The translations under genes were made by a program, and so were the position numbers. From Candidatus Saccharimonadota bacterium (GTDB taxonomy: Bacteria; Patescibacteriota; Saccharimonadia; Saccharimonadales; UBA4665): 64,000 nt of DNA. The stretch lies in contig PDRS01000005.1 of assembly GCA_002746885.1 (NCBI GenBank), positions 62,001-126,000 of the forward strand, read 5' to 3'. The notes below the pieces were generated by a model, which worked only from the letters and a program-made list of their open reading frames with translations, had not been told where the DNA came from and ran no database searches. Positions 6,336 through 44,744 of this stretch are shown in pieces; the stretch's first letter is position 1, and each line of letters begins with the position of its first letter.

Positions 6336-6341
6336 TATAAT
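6336..6341 (+). promoter_or_regulatory. -10 box upstream of dnaE
   Basis: TATAAT occurs with a weak -35 candidate CTGACG 17 bp upstream (6313-6318). The leader to the chosen GTG start would be about 85 nt. Confidence 0.55.
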
Positions 6342-6433
6342 TGAGTAGAGAACAAAGCAGGGTGATTGTGCTATTCCGAGCGAGGTGGACTTGGTTTTGC
6401 AGCAATCGAAACGGCAAAGACAATGGGGGTCGT

Positions 6434-9400
6434 GTGGCAGAAAAGAAGACCAAGACAAAAACAGGCGCTGCGGCTGTAACGGCGGCAGACTATGTGCATC
6501 TGCACAATCATACGCAATACAGTCTGCTCGACGGTCTGACGAAGATCCCCGAGCTGGTAGAATTCGTCAAAGAACAGGGTATGAGCGCCGTGGGTATGAC
6601 AGATCATGGGACGCTCAGCGGCACAGTGGAGTTTTACAAGGAGTGCATTGGTAAAGAAATCAAGCCAATCATAGGTATAGAAACCTATGTTGCTACGCGC
6701 AAACACACCGACAAAGACCCTCAAAAAGACAAAAACCGTTACCACTTGGTGCTTTTAGCCATGAACCAAAAGGGGTACGAAAATCTCATGCGGTTGAGTA
6801 CCATCGCCAACCTCGACGGCTTCTACTACTTTCCGCGCATAGACCATGACTTGCTTGAGCAGTATAACGAAGGACTTATTTGCGGTAGTGCCTGCATGGG
6901 CGGCGAGATAGGCGAAGCGCTGCGAGACGACGACTTCGAAAAAGCCAAAGACATTGCAAGCTGGTACAAAAGCGTGTTTGGCGACCGCTATTACCTAGAA
7001 GTGCAAGATCACGGCCATCCCAAAGCGCCAAGACACAATGCCGAACAAACGAAAGTGAACGAAGGCGTGTTCAAGCTCGGTAAGGCACTCGACATCCCAG
7101 TTATTCTCACCTGCGATGCGCATTATTTAAAACACGAAGACCAAGACGCTCACGAAATCCTGCTTTGTGTCGGCACTGGAGCTTACTTGAGCGACGAAAA
7201 ACGTATGTCGCTCAAAGACTTTGACCTGCATGTTATTCCTCCAGCCGAGCTGGTTGACCGCTGGGGCAAGGATCATCCCGAAGTCATTACAAACACAAAA
7301 GCTGTCGCGGACCGCTGCGAAGTAAACATTGATCTTGGCAAAATCCTTATTCCGAAGTTTCCAGTGCCAAAAGGCGAAGACGAAAAAAGCTATTTGCACA
7401 AACTGGTGTGGCAGGGGCTTGCTTGGCGCTACGGCGGCGTTTCGGCGAAAGAACGCGATAGTTTGAGCGTGGCTGCGGCGAGAAAACATCTGACAAAAAG
7501 CATCATTGAGCGCGCGGAGTACGAGCTCGGCATCATGAATGACATGGGGTACAACGGCTACTTTCTCATTGTGCAAGATTTTATAAACTGGGGGAAAGAC
7601 CAAGGGGTTATCTTTGGTCCAGGGCGAGGTAGCGCGGCCGGCTCCATTGTGTCGTATGCTATCCGTATTACGGAAATCGACCCTTTGAAATACGGCTTGA
7701 TGTTTGAGCGGTTTTTGAACCCAGGCCGCATAAGCATGCCCGACATAGACATAGATATTCAAGACACGCGGCGCGACGAAGTCATTCAGTATTGCGTGGA
7801 AAAATACGGCAAAGACCGCGTGGCAAACATTGTTACGTTTGGCAGAATGTTTGCGCGCAATGCCGTGCGCGATGTCGCGCGTGTTCTGCAGGTGCCTTAT
7901 GGCGAGGCAGATCGCCTTGCAAAAATGATCCCCCAGCCAGTGCAGGGCCGCCATATCCCACTCGCGACTTCCATACGCGAAGATGTGGATCTCAAGCGTG
8001 AGTACGAAACGAACGAAACGAGCAAAACAGTCATTGACTACGCGATAACGCTCGAAAGTACCGTCCGCAGCCATGGCGTTCATGCTGCTGGCGTCGTGAT
8101 TGCGCCCGACGACATAGTGAAATTTGTTCCGCTGGAAATGGCTCAAAAAGGTGTCATATCTACGCAGTATCCAATGGGACCAGTCGATGAACTAGGGTTG
8201 CTGAAAATAGATTTTCTCGGACTTGCCAACCTAACGGTTATAAAAAACGCGCTGCGAATCATCAAAAAAGTATATGCAAACACCATTGAGCTCAGCGCAA
8301 TTTCAAAGGAGGACGACAAAACTTTTCAGCTGTTTCGCGATGGCGACACGACGGGCGTGTTCCAGTTTGAGTCTGCCGGCATGAAGCGCTACATGAAGGA
8401 GCTGAAGCCGACTGAGTTCACCGACCTCGTTGCCATGAATGCACTGTATCGCCCCGGTCCCATGTCGGAAATCCCGCGGTTTATTCAGGGCAAAAACAAT
8501 CCGTCGAGTGTGTCCTATTTGCACGCGTCGCTTGAACCAATATTGCGCGACACGTATGGCGTTATGGTATATCAGGAGCAAATCATTCAGCTGCTGCAAC
8601 TTGTGGCTGGCTATAGCGCCGGCGAGGCCGATCTTGTCCGTAAGGCCATCGGCAAAAAAAAGCGCGAAATCATGAAGGCCGAAGCGCCAAAATTCATCGC
8701 TGGCTGCGTGCGGCAGGGTTTGAGCGAGGCGCAGGCAAACCACCTATGGGATCAAATCCAGCCGTTTGCTGACTATTCGTTCAACAAAGCGCACGCGGTT
8801 TGTTATGCCCAAATAGCGTACTGGACAGCGTACTTAAAAGCGCATTACCCAGACGCTTTCATGGCTGCGCTAATGACCAGCGACTTTGACGACACTGATC
8901 GCCTCGCCATAGAAATAACCGAATGCAAGCACATGGGAATACATGTTCTCCCGCCCGATGTCAACGAGTCGTTCGGTGAATTTGCTGTCGTAAAAGGGAA
9001 AAACGCCATTCGTTTTGGTATGAATGCCATAAAAAATGTCGGCACTGGAGCTGTTGATGAAATACTACGAGCGCGCGAAGCGGGGACGTTTGGCAGCATT
9101 GAAGACTTTGTTGCGGCAGTAAACCTGCGCACCGTCAACCGTAAGGCGCTCGAAAGCCTGACTCGTGCCGGTGCGTTTGACAGCTTTTGCGATCGCTCAA
9201 CGCTTCTACATAACCTTGACACCATTCTCGCCTATGGCCAGCGCCTGCAAAAGGAACGTGCCAGCGGTCAGACAGACCTATTCGGCGGGGCAGCCGACGA
9301 TGTGGTTGCCGCAAAGCCAACACTCAAACTCGAAGCTCCAGAACAGGCGCACAATGCGCGCGAGTTATTGCTGTGGGAGCGCGAGCTACTCGGCTTGTAC

Positions 9401-10096
9401 CTGAGTCAGCAGCCGCTTGAGGCGTTTAGCGCGCTTTTGGCAGAGCAGACGACGCCGCTCAATGCGCTCAAGCCGGAACACGACGGCCGTGCGGTCACGG
9501 TGGGTGGCGGCGTTGTCGACGCGCGCGAAATCACGACAAAAAACGGCCAAAAAATGGCGTTCGTGAAGCTCGAAGACGAACACGGCGAAATTGAACTCAT
9601 CCTTTTCCCCTCGGCTTTTCAGCAAACAGTGGGGCTGTGGGAGCGCGACAGGGTCGTAGTCGCCCGCGGCCGCGTCAGTACGCGCGGGCGCGATGGTCAG
9701 GCTGGTGACGAAGTGAAAATTATGGTCGATGATGCCCGCGAGATCACTCACGACCAAGCAGTCGCCTATCAGGCGACAGGCAAAAAAGCTCGCGTACCGA
9801 AGCCAAACAAACATGCCAAAACTGCCGCAAAAAACACCAGCACTGCGCGCAGCGAAGCCGACGCCCAAAAACCAGCGCGGCTCTACCTGCGTATTGCGAA
9901 AAGCGATGATACTGAACTACTCACCGCTCTGAAGCAGCTCGTCGACGGCACGCCAGGTGAACACGAGATTGTCCTCGTGCTTGGTCCAGAAAACGCCAAG
10001 CAGGCTGTAAAACTGCCCACTCGCGTGCAGGTAGCTGAAGAGCTGTTGAGTTCCTTGGGCGAGCTGCTTGGTGCCGACAACGTGAAGTTCCAGTAG
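6434..10096 (+). CDS. dnaE: DNA polymerase III alpha subunit
   Basis: DnaE is the replicative polymerase. The protein (about 1220 residues) starts with a PHP domain (YVHLHNHTQYSLLDG, then TDHGTLSG), and the catalytic palm carries GRGSAAGS and, near residue 436, the PDIDIDI aspartates. Finger motifs such as YQEQIIQLLQ and FNKAHAVCYAQIAYWTAYLK, the helix-hairpin-helix region and a C-terminal OB fold (VTVGGGVVDAREI) follow. I place the start at the GTG 6434 (VAEKKTK) preceded by GGGGG; the track's TTG at 6341 overlaps the -10 box. A Lys/Thr/Ala-rich low-complexity linker (near residues 1115-1145) separates the OB fold from the last domain. Confidence 0.96.
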   Translation: MAEKKTKTKTGAAAVTAADYVHLHNHTQYSLLDGLTKIPELVEFVKEQGMSAVGMTDHGTLSGTVEFYKECIGKEIKPIIGIETYVATRKHTDKDPQKDKNRYHLVLLAMNQKGYENLMRLSTIANLDGFYYFPRIDHDLLEQYNEGLICGSACMGGEIGEALRDDDFEKAKDIASWYKSVFGDRYYLEVQDHGHPKAPRHNAEQTKVNEGVFKLGKALDIPVILTCDAHYLKHEDQDAHEILLCVGTGAYLSDEKRMSLKDFDLHVIPPAELVDRWGKDHPEVITNTKAVADRCEVNIDLGKILIPKFPVPKGEDEKSYLHKLVWQGLAWRYGGVSAKERDSLSVAAARKHLTKSIIERAEYELGIMNDMGYNGYFLIVQDFINWGKDQGVIFGPGRGSAAGSIVSYAIRITEIDPLKYGLMFERFLNPGRISMPDIDIDIQDTRRDEVIQYCVEKYGKDRVANIVTFGRMFARNAVRDVARVLQVPYGEADRLAKMIPQPVQGRHIPLATSIREDVDLKREYETNETSKTVIDYAITLESTVRSHGVHAAGVVIAPDDIVKFVPLEMAQKGVISTQYPMGPVDELGLLKIDFLGLANLTVIKNALRIIKKVYANTIELSAISKEDDKTFQLFRDGDTTGVFQFESAGMKRYMKELKPTEFTDLVAMNALYRPGPMSEIPRFIQGKNNPSSVSYLHASLEPILRDTYGVMVYQEQIIQLLQLVAGYSAGEADLVRKAIGKKKREIMKAEAPKFIAGCVRQGLSEAQANHLWDQIQPFADYSFNKAHAVCYAQIAYWTAYLKAHYPDAFMAALMTSDFDDTDRLAIEITECKHMGIHVLPPDVNESFGEFAVVKGKNAIRFGMNAIKNVGTGAVDEILRAREAGTFGSIEDFVAAVNLRTVNRKALESLTRAGAFDSFCDRSTLLHNLDTILAYGQRLQKERASGQTDLFGGAADDVVAAKPTLKLEAPEQAHNARELLLWERELLGLYLSQQPLEAFSALLAEQTTPLNALKPEHDGRAVTVGGGVVDAREITTKNGQKMAFVKLEDEHGEIELILFPSAFQQTVGLWERDRVVVARGRVSTRGRDGQAGDEVKIMVDDAREITHDQAVAYQATGKKARVPKPNKHAKTAAKNTSTARSEADAQKPARLYLRIAKSDDTELLTALKQLVDGTPGEHEIVLVLGPENAKQAVKLPTRVQVAEELLSSLGELLGADNVKFQ

Positions 10097-10272
10097 GTTG
10101 CCACAACAAAACCGCAGCGCACGCATTGACGCGACGTAAGAGTAGCTTGAGCCCTCTCCGCAGTTATCTGTAAATAGATGGCACAGGATTTACGCGTTTG
10201 CATGCAGCCCGTGATGAAAAGCTGGCATCAGAACTGACTTTTACTAGAGCTCAGGGAGGGTTTTCGTTCAAA

Positions 10273-10377
10273 ATGCGCCAAACGCGTCAGCCCCGAAACA
10301 GTCAAAACATTGGCTTAGATTGTACGGCCGTACAATCTAAACACAGCATGAAGGTGTATATAAGGTGTTTTTTATGA
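10273..10377 (+). other. Possible 34-codon ORF running through the first palindrome
   Basis: An ATG at 10273, with a GGGAGGG site about 13 nt upstream, opens a frame of 34 codons (MRQTRQPRNSQ...) that reads through the first palindrome and ends at 10377. Its stop overlaps a second tiny frame, 10374-10409 (MKKQRSARSER), as ATGA. Both are too short to support alone; I record them because they lie exactly at and between the two palindromes. Confidence 0.2.
10315..10340. repeat. 26-bp perfect palindrome, copy 1
   Basis: This perfect inverted repeat has the core TTGTACGGCCGTACAA flanked by TTAGA and TCTAA. It matches the copy at 10411-10436 except for one symmetric base pair, where G/C here replaces A/T there, so palindromy is kept by a paired change. 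It could be an operator for a dimeric regulator or an RNA hairpin with an 11-bp stem and a GGCC loop. Confidence 0.85.
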
Positions 10378-10410
10378 AAAAGCAGCGATCAGCAAGAAGT
10401 GAACGATGAA

Positions 10411-10436
10411 TTAAATTGTACGGCCGTACAATTTAA
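10411..10436. repeat. 26-bp perfect palindrome, copy 2
   Basis: It has the same 16-bp core as copy 1, with arms TTAAA and TTTAA. The two copies start 96 bp apart in a region without a recognisable gene. Confidence 0.85.
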
Positions 10437-10764
10437 AACAAAAAGTGTGCGAGAAGTTGGGTTGGTACGGCAATGGGCGGGTTGTTTGGTATCGTGTTTT
10501 GCTCGACAGTGAGTTTGGCTACGAGAAAAATGTTCGATGAGGCTCACTTGGGCTTCTCAAGCCCTCTCCACTATCTCCATATTCAACAGCTATTTCCACA
10601 CTATTGGCTGCACATGTTTGCACCTTTTGTCGAAATAAAAAACCATTATTCCTCCGCAATGCGCAATATACTTCGCCTACAATCTAAAAATTTCGTTACG
10701 AAAGAGAGCTAGTGGACAGGCTCTAAAGCGAAAGGTCAGAAGCTGGTGGCTGAGTGGTGTTGTG

Positions 10765-10882
10765 GTGGTTGCACATCAAAAAACAGGGGTCAGCGGAGCA
10801 GAACTCGGAGTTAACTCTGAGTTAAATCGGAGTTCGAGCGACACATACCGCGCATAGCCGGCAGCGCACAGCAGACCGTTTA
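10765..10882. repeat. Dispersed iteron element, copy 1 (118 bp)
   Basis: This block is repeated at 44535-44663. Both share a left arm (GTGGTTGCACAT), a 26-bp stretch ending CAGCGGAGCAG, a tandem run of 11-bp quasi-palindromes of form AACTCnGAGTT, then CGAGCG and a right arm ending GCAGACCGTTTA. Copy 1 has three 11-bp units (10802-10834), copy 2 has four; the size difference is exactly one unit. The right end of copy 1 supplies the stop codon of the CAP-domain gene on the minus strand. Confidence 0.85.
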
Positions 10883-12004
10883 CCGAATGGTTCCAGATGA
10901 TTGTAAGAGAATAATGCCCACGGTCGCTACGGCCACAAATACGATGTCGAGGAACGGATGATGCAGGATAAATTTCTCGCCTTTCACAAGTACCTTGTGC
11001 CAGGCGAAACTGTGCCGCAGTAAAAATGCCAGCAGCGCAATGCTCGCAATCATGCTGACGGCAAACTGGCTCCAGCCAACGTTTGTTGCGGAAATTGTGT
11101 GAAGGCGCGAAATATCTTGCGAGGCGGCCGCGTCGGCGTTTCGGGCGACAGCTTCTGCGTCGCCTCGTTTTGTCGAGTTGGGCGGCGGTGTTTTTTGCTC
11201 CTGTTTTTGTTCGGCGAGAGCGGGTTCTTCGACAGGCGCTTCAGCGGCCTGTTCGCTGGCATCGTTTTCTGGGGCGGCTGGTTGTTGCTGAGCGACTGGC
11301 GCTGGTGCGGGTGCTGGCGCAGGCGCAGGTGCGGGTGTAGGAGCAGGCGCAGGTGTTGGTGTTGGGTTGGGAGTTGGCGTGGGAGTTGGGGCTGGCGGCG
11401 GGGTAGCGTTTATGGGGAGTGCGTACATAGCGACGACGACAGTTTGCGGGCCGTTGCCGACAAAGTTCGGTGCGTTCGCAATACCAAATCCAACTTCTGT
11501 AAAGCTTTGGCTGAGCATGTTTGCTCGATGCCCAGGACTATTCATCCAGCCAGCGATAGTGGCGGATGAGGTAGTGAAGCCGTAGGCCAAATTTTCTCCT
11601 GCCGTTTGATAGCTGTACCCAGCAGCAGTGATGAATGTCCACGGGGTTTGACCGTCGGGCGTATTGTGCGACCAATAGTTTCGTGCAACCATGTCATTTG
11701 CCTTGTTTTGGGCGGCTTGATTGAGCATTGCGTTGAGCGCAAGACTGCCGAGGCTGTTAGCGGCTCGTTCGGCGTTCGTGGCGCTGGCTAGGCCGCTTAC
11801 TGAAATATTTGTGGCATAGCCCAGCACGCTTCGCCCTGAAGAGCCAAGCCAAATGTGCCACAGCATACCGAAAAACATGATGGCAACAATCGGTATGTAC
11901 GGCCAATATGTCTGCTTGTAGTGGCGGCCGTGGCTGTGGTGCGCCGCGACACGCTTGCGGTGTGCAGTCGACTTTCGGCGTGATTTTGTTTTGTTCAGTG
12001 TCAT
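10880..12004 (-). CDS. CAP/SCP-domain cell-surface protein
   Basis: The 374-residue protein has a basic N-terminus, one membrane helix (residues about 34-52, YIPIVAIMFFGMLWHIWL), then a CAP domain with NAERAANSLGSLALN, YWSHNTPDGQTPWTFI, GENLAYG and WMNSPGHRANMLSQSFTEVGFG. A long Pro/Thr/Ala linker follows, then two C-terminal helices. It is therefore held in the membrane at both ends with the CAP domain outside. CAP proteins are secreted, and their exact activity in bacteria is mostly unknown. The last codons lie within the repeat element, so the C-terminus may have been reshaped by its insertion. Confidence 0.9.
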   Translation of the reverse strand: MTLNKTKSRRKSTAHRKRVAAHHSHGRHYKQTYWPYIPIVAIMFFGMLWHIWLGSSGRSVLGYATNISVSGLASATNAERAANSLGSLALNAMLNQAAQNKANDMVARNYWSHNTPDGQTPWTFITAAGYSYQTAGENLAYGFTTSSATIAGWMNSPGHRANMLSQSFTEVGFGIANAPNFVGNGPQTVVVAMYALPINATPPPAPTPTPTPNPTPTPAPAPTPAPAPAPAPAPAPVAQQQPAAPENDASEQAAEAPVEEPALAEQKQEQKTPPPNSTKRGDAEAVARNADAAASQDISRLHTISATNVGWSQFAVSMIASIALLAFLLRHSFAWHKVLVKGEKFILHHPFLDIVFVAVATVGIILLQSSGTIR

Positions 12005-44485: not shown

Positions 44486-44534
44486 CATGTTGTTGATTGG
44501 TGCGGGTTGGCTTATGTGCTGTCGTGGTGTCACA

Positions 44535-44663
44535 GTGGTTGCACATAAAAAAACAGGGTTCAGCGGAGCAGAACTCGGAGTTAACTCTGAGTTAAATCGG
44601 AGTTAACTCCGATTTCGAGCGGCGCACACCGCGCACAGCCGATAGCTCTCAGCAGACCGTTTA
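44535..44663. repeat. Dispersed iteron element, copy 2 (129 bp)
   Basis: See the copy at 10765. Here four 11-bp units run from 44572 to 44615; the last two form a perfect 22-bp palindrome (AAATCGGAGTT and its complement) and the first two a 22-bp palindrome with one mismatch. The element is in the same orientation as copy 1 and ends 113 bp before the SPFH gene. Confidence 0.87.
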
Positions 44664-44744
44664 TCGACATCGTTTGTCGCTGCGTCCATGATACTTCTGG
44701 CTATGCTTACTCCTTGGCAGTCGTGCGAATGTGTTACCGCGTGG

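Follow-up and report, generated by a model that had tools for sequence, protein, structure and literature searches.

Two perfect 26-bp palindromes in a 64-kb stretch of Saccharibacterial DNA belong to a dispersed family of intergenic palindromes, and the best-supported reading of the sequences is that the palindrome is the cognate DNA site of a PaaX/Cas2-like protein, whose gene lies between two copies of it in related genomes. It is very likely that the copies are bound by some DNA-binding protein. As an explanation of the whole, we tentatively propose that the palindromes may be non-coding members of a family with the PaaX/Cas2-like protein as its cognate protein, and may have spread in the manner of REP sequences.

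The palindrome pair and its dispersed family

The window, i.e. the whole stretch of 64 kb analyzed here, corresponds to positions 62001-126000 of contig C15 in a genome of 1.06 Mb and 17 contigs (G000). The two palindromes, TTAGATTGTACGGCCGTACAATCTAA (10315..10340) and TTAAATTGTACGGCCGTACAATTTAA (10411..10436), have their starts 96 bp apart and are identical but for a symmetric exchange of a G/C for an A/T pair, as the first-pass annotation had described; further copies were found elsewhere in the genome. The gene-poor setting that it reported was also confirmed, with 784 bp separating two convergent genes. This intergenic stretch (10097..10879) is pieced together from at least three dispersed repeats, and no tRNA or Rfam element was found at the pair. 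Both flanking genes lie outside the element. The first, dnaE (6341..10096, plus strand), is presumed from its recognised sequence to encode the DNA polymerase III alpha subunit and was used for finding relatives, the best of which were all 'Candidatus Saccharibacteria'. The other is a 374-aa ORF (10880..12004, minus strand), which we take by eye to resemble a CAP/SCP-domain secreted protein. The pair is contained in a module of about 255 bp (10303..10557, plus strand) with 92% identity to C15:42680-42932, 30 kb off. Two other repeats touch the same spacer. One (10589-10724) is also present at C4:174396-174531 (90%) and C11:18005-18167 (79%), while the other, shared with 82% identity by 10754-10886 and 44524-44667, carries a second palindrome family, TCGGAGTTAACTCCGA, which forms arrays of 11-bp period and has more copies on C8, C11 and C15.

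By expectation, 64 kb would contain a perfect arm of 13 bp about 0.001 times. The window has three perfect palindromes with arms of at least 9 bp, namely the pair and a 22-mer at 44594, and in 100 dinucleotide shuffles of its sequence the core matches never became as many as observed. Word counts agree: the commonest 14-bp palindrome of the whole G000 genome is TGTACGGCCGTACA, and its most over-represented 14-mers of any kind are sub-words of the family palindrome. A chance origin of the pair is ruled out by the shuffles, the expectation and the word counts, and the earlier statement that chance cannot easily give such a pair was borne out.

A search of the whole genome for the core TTGTACGGCCGTACAA, allowing one mismatch, found 12 places, all on the 416-kb contig C15 (42695, 42791, 72320, 72416, 300782, 300981, 319731, 319827, 320809, 346650, 349179 and 389756), with eight of them inside 90 kb (300-390 kb). 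All 12 read as intergenic, though two doubtful small ORFs adjoin two copies, whereas only about 9% of C15 lies outside called ORFs, and this placement favors our proposal. A core scattered at random, or linked to restriction, had been named in the first-pass annotation as the outcome that would speak against a role; the search returned these clustered intergenic copies instead. Pairs in G000 are spaced 96, 96 and 199 bp, each unit being self-symmetric. The second 96-bp pair (C15:319731/319827) has a spacer unrelated to that of the window pair, and 96 bp is about 9 helical turns, but as a sign of looping the recurrent spacing is suggestive only. No half-site enrichment was detected in G000, and a reading as uptake sequences or scattered half-sites was dropped because the 10-mer half-site seldom occurs apart from the palindromes. 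A viral origin was also rejected, as 16-mer matches in viral contigs were about as many as expected by chance and their flanks were not common with those of the family copies. Separately, seven contig ends of G000 have the same sequence, CCGAATTAACACTCAAAACGCAACCCC... (C15:415570, C4:78, C4:174762, C16:90725, C6:24531, C10:79 and C14:8233), and the assembly was therefore interrupted at these points by an element present in multiple copies, perhaps an insertion sequence.

Symmetry and conservation of the sites

The consensus over 23 sites is a 24-bp core, TARATTGTMCGGCCGKACAATYTA. Eight of the 12 arm positions (1-3, 5-7, 11 and 12) are invariant, as is the self-complementary centre CGGCCG. At position 4 (A/C) the two arms fail to pair in 7 of 23 sites, and position 10 (G/A) is mostly altered on both sides together, partly within single genomes. 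Four of the 23 copies extend past the core by at least 7 perfectly complementary bases, the sequence of which is specific to the locus. When arms were re-paired between sites, the mean was 0.13 extended copies, and four were reached in 0 of 20000 trials (p < 1/20000). The symmetry is real and two-layered: the core is fixed, as suits protein recognition, and the outer arms vary yet stay self-complementary, as suits hairpin-forming or template-corrected DNA. The first-pass annotation had taken the paired change in the window to show selection for symmetry. The symmetry itself stands over the 23 sites, but a single change is not proof of selection, because symmetric changes could also arise without it, through gene conversion or the template-switch repair of near-palindromes, and position 4 is often unpaired.

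It is improbable that the copies act as RNA hairpins, i.e. as terminators, mRNA 3' stabilisers or processing sites in which pairing matters and not protein recognition. Such a role would agree with the strong folding of the region (z = -6.1), with outer arms that are locus-specific yet self-complementary, and with the presence of most copies in codirectional or convergent spacers. However, other copies lie in a divergent spacer (C15:300782/300981) or right on start codons, the invariant and self-complementary CGGCCG is needless for a hairpin loop, position 4 is mismatched in those 7 sites, and most copies are without a U-tract after it. In the 12 copies of G000 the stem is followed by CTAAAAC or similar, and an intrinsic terminator was rejected since most have no T-run there; one copy in G017 (L236:4526) carries TTTTATTTAT. 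The hairpin-bearing small RNA suggested earlier was not upheld, having neither an Rfam match nor a U-tract next to the stem.

Among 93 genomes of the taxonomic family, the palindromes are clear only in two congeners, G017 (six copies) and G022 (five), where the commoner form is TTGTCCGGCCGGACAA, and the exact core is absent from the rest of the 393 genomes of the order. Four other family genomes have one two-mismatch match each; a reversed control pattern also matches singly in four, and therefore these single matches are due to chance. By tblastn, copies hold orthologous places 5' of a guanylate-kinase-like gene and of a PIF1-like helicase gene in each of the three species; G000 and G017 also have them around dsbA. 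Identity between orthologues is 59-69% for the kinase and 72-76% for the helicase (about 55-75% for neighbor proteins overall), and the core is kept at these loci though the intergenic flanks have mostly diverged. The kinase and dsbA loci of the remaining congeners showed no such palindrome. Window-type palindromes also stand beside ApbE, a cupin gene and dsbA in G017 (C77, L236) and G022 (C145, L241). The G017 contig additionally encodes cytochrome bd subunit I, in keeping with a redox theme, and no close match to ApbE or cytochrome bd was obtained in G000 with tblastn. DsbA, ApbE and a flavin reductase-like protein are redox genes among those linked to the palindromes.

PaaX/Cas2-like genes between palindromes

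In G017, contig C54 has a 191-aa ORF (L237:2826-3401, minus strand) between two window-type copies, one abutting the ATG and one after the stop codon. The site at the 5' end overlaps a -10-like TACAAT hexamer in its right arm. The same gene is split across two contigs in G022, with a palindrome copy at each outer end. The 191-aa protein contains a PaaX_M Cas2-like domain (7.8e-23), and in six proteins Pfam PaaX_M (PF20803) was matched at 1e-18 to 6e-24, with 67-84 bits against a curated cut-off of 24. The PaaX equivalog TIGR02277 gave only 25-37 bits against a cut-off of 264.55, and matches to NCBIfam Cas2 were weak, the cut-off being passed by one protein only. Judged by these profiles, the product of the linked gene is a PaaX_M-domain protein and not a PaaX equivalog. 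A structure model predicts with confidence a ferredoxin-like fold for the C-terminal domain, which is laid out as beta-alpha-beta-beta-alpha-beta with a conserved Asp in the first strand (FDIPE/YDIPE), while the N-terminal half is modelled with low confidence (mean pLDDT 68.5). The best Foldseek matches were Cas2 and then E. coli PaaX (8a39), all weak with E-values of 0.015 and above, and a sequence-profile search of the PDB gave no match. The predicted protein would have a helical N-terminal part, a PaaX-like helix-turn-helix stretch and a Cas2-like ferredoxin domain.

The subfamily is strong in three of the 93 family genomes (G017, G022 and G024). In G000 the sole relative is a distant one on C11, which has no such flanking palindromes, and the orthologous spot retains one palindrome (C15:389756) beside the helicase gene. 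From this comparison G000 appears to have lost the gene, leaving the window pair as orphan sites, in an assembly about 97% complete of which six small contigs (about 10 kb) were masked. Searches for relatives of the PaaX-like protein in plasmids, phages and viruses found none, and there were neither further PaaX-like genes at 80 dnaE loci of other Saccharibacteria nor a HUH motif near the palindrome copies at the G017 and G022 loci. The operator idea of the first-pass annotation survives in part. The copies are dispersed and explained neither by chance nor by restriction-type scatter, and a protein-binding site is very likely, but the linked regulator was expected to be TetR-like. No TetR match was present among the scanned proteins adjoining palindrome copies, and what is linked to the palindromes in the two congeners is a PaaX/Cas2-like candidate, which was not found in G000.

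Each paralogue is accompanied by a palindrome of its own. In G017, the C37 paralogue lies between copies of TTTGACACGATCGTGTCAAA-type palindromes and the C85 paralogue between ATTCCAATA..CGATCG..TATTGGAAT. In G022, genes lie between inverted copies of TTCTCTTAGATTATGCTATAGCATGAGTTAAGAGAA (C58), between ATTCTAGTT..ATGCTATAGCAT..AACTAGAAT (C104) and between ACACTTTTGTTACGGCCGTAACAAAAGTGT (C108), and in G024, from a third genus, one lies between TTAATTGTGACGACCGTC-type repeats (C7). For an eighth paralogue (G017, C15) the common repeat is present but further from the ORF. The flank-repeat score, which takes 60 bp on each side of a gene and gives the best ungapped match of one to the other, was 14-34 in seven of the eight PaaX-like genes with intact flanks and 5 for the remote relative in G000. 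Equally high scores were obtained for 3 of 668 control genes of G000, which are a tandem gene duplication, a duplicated stretch by a neighboring gene end and the RAYT transposase of this genome. This comparison is supportive of bracketing but is not a formal test, because the threshold was set post hoc and the 60-bp window was picked after several flanks had been seen.

Across the roughly 468 kb of G017 that was searched, the C37-type palindrome has four copies, all within about 9 kb; two of these are perfect palindromes of 38 and 44 bp with outer arms that differ through paired changes. The four (L294 2191, 2896, 4081 and 11456) also have a common upstream motif, (T/C)ACCCC(T/G)(T/G)TT, in one orientation, about 10 bp ahead of the outer arm and on one side only. 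The window-type family is without this motif, and no one-sided 5' tag was detected beside it over background. The syntenic places of three cassettes (L265, L269 and L273) in G000 contain no PaaX-like gene. Convergent ORFs enclose the 3' palindrome of L264, L269 and L273, which leaves an operator without an obvious target.

An operator regulon, though doubtful, is the main rival explanation of these data and a serious one. In it the palindromes would be sites of a PaaX-like repressor that controls itself and its neighbors with no mobility, the gene having been lost or replaced in G000. In its favor, PaaX proteins are known repressors, and the sites lie against the ATG of the PaaX-like gene, where they cover a TACAAT hexamer. 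The eight invariant arm positions against diverging flanks, the orthologous sites 5' of the kinase-like and helicase genes (three species) and of dsbA (two), the redox character of several linked genes and the asymmetric A/C at position 4, which fits half-sites read independently, also speak for it. However, there is no promoter to act on at the convergent-gene sites, which include the window, L236:4526 in a 44-bp gap and the 3' copies of three paralogues, and the distance from palindrome to start codon is not conserved, varying at the kinase gene from 42 to about 168 bp. Locus-specific palindromic outer arms are unexpected for an operator, and the bracketing of every paralogue on both sides is left unexplained. 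The convergent-gene sites and the outer arms speak against an operator regulon as the whole story.

The use of the sites by an unrelated protein, for example a chromosome-organising one, with the PaaX-like cassettes merely adjacent, is very improbable. It would suit the confinement of every G000 copy to one contig, with eight of 12 in 90 kb, and the missing PaaX orthologue in that genome, but not the different palindrome found on both sides of every paralogue. Moreover, neither dnaA (C11, 235 kb) nor the skew maximum, at about 145 kb on C15, is surrounded by copies, and the contig that encodes ParB is a different one. With parAB on C4, family copies are on neither C4 nor C11. Both parS and ter sites were rejected, since the positions are unsuitable.

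Likeness to known systems and meaning

In the explanation that we prefer, the PaaX/Cas2-like protein would recognise the palindrome flanking its own gene and, with the site overlapping the gene's own promoter, would probably repress itself. The palindromes may have spread via this protein as short non-autonomous elements, as REPs do through RAYT. G000 would have lost the gene and kept one palindrome at its place, and the window pair would be orphan copies, one in the 255-bp segment duplicated later. REP-like spread is favored because of the bracketing, the one palindrome type per paralogue, the syntenic presence and absence of cassettes, and the dispersed solo and paired copies; binding by the protein and movement of the palindrome by it are both inferred. 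Several points count against this explanation. G000 is without a clear orthologue yet has kept 12 good copies, those at orthologous loci in diverged species look like selected sites over passing insertions, and the copies are regionally clustered, in contrast to the genome-wide repeat of the RAYT. PaaX repressors, known to contain the Cas2-like domain, are not transposases, and the low model confidence in the N-terminal half is a further point against. A system of mobile palindromes driven by the Cas2-like (PaaX-like) protein in place of a Y1 transposase, with each paralogue moving or copying its own palindromes between genes, is rather unlikely. Repressor regulon and mobility could both be true, the sites being then domesticated ones of a once-mobile system.

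The nearest working likeness is REP/RAYT. In both there is a small single gene flanked by a palindromic repeat that also occurs, alone or in pairs, at scattered intergenic places. Distinct palindromes accompany distinct RAYT paralogues (PMC3116915), as they do the PaaX-like paralogues. In the flank test the RAYT of G000 scores the same as the latter. The window-type family consists of extragenic, palindromic, dispersed repeats beside a gene. However, the family is not a member of REP/RAYT, since its gene encodes a PaaX/Cas2-like protein and no Y1 transposase of the HUH type. REP/RAYT systems are marked by tens to hundreds of copies, mainly inverted doublets; here there are pairs, but of a self-symmetric unit, and the palindromes are near-perfect, low-copy (5-12 per genome), regionally clustered and without a 5' tag, with some loci conserved between species. 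To our knowledge, RAYT is the one known protein-plus-palindrome system of this bracketed design. The sole Y1 gene found in G000 (C11:70992-71609, L092) pairs with another repeat, AGGACWGTCCT, and mobilisation of the window-type family by this RAYT was ruled out on that ground. Its product matches NF047646 below the cut-off and the gene is flanked by inverted copies of TTTTGGGAGGACAG. AGGACWGTCCT has about 22 copies genome-wide, with REPIN-like doublets at C15:153752/153791 and C15:206921/206948, and together they are a probable REP/RAYT system in a Saccharibacterium.

The resemblance to PaaX repressors and their operators lies in the central Cas2-like domain (PF20803), the fold match to 8a39 and the presumed dyad DNA site. 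Unlike them, the proteins have about 190 aa instead of about 300, no C-terminal PaaX domain was matched, no phenylacetate genes were seen, and the sites flank the gene on both sides and are dispersed. Cas2/VapD-like ferredoxin-fold nucleases share the beta-alpha-beta-beta-alpha-beta domain and the first-strand Asp, and Cas2 was matched by Foldseek, but no Cas1 was seen alongside and the NCBIfam Cas2 cut-off was reached by that one protein. A compact ORF between hairpin-forming ends, with shorter paired copies, recalls IS200/IS605-type elements and MITEs; however, the cassette has no Y1 or DDE domain, and target duplication and precise excision were not among the features seen.

A limited search of the open literature gave no paper tying PaaX to Cas2, to Saccharibacteria or to palindromes together with Cas2. 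Among the open papers covered, none described PaaX-like genes bracketed by their own palindromes. The data suggest that the palindrome and the PaaX-like protein form an undescribed protein-and-palindrome system resembling REP/RAYT. If the pairing is true, each PaaX/Cas2-like cassette displays at either end the DNA that it targets. This would provide a large natural set of proteins and sites for a family with little-known DNA recognition, and the role of non-CRISPR Cas2-like proteins on mobile DNA would become testable. If the palindromes and their gene prove to be only a repressor regulon, there would still be a concrete candidate regulator with a predicted binding motif in Saccharibacteria. 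If the mobile reading is true, these ultra-small bacteria would harbor a counterpart of REP/RAYT that relies on a different family of proteins.
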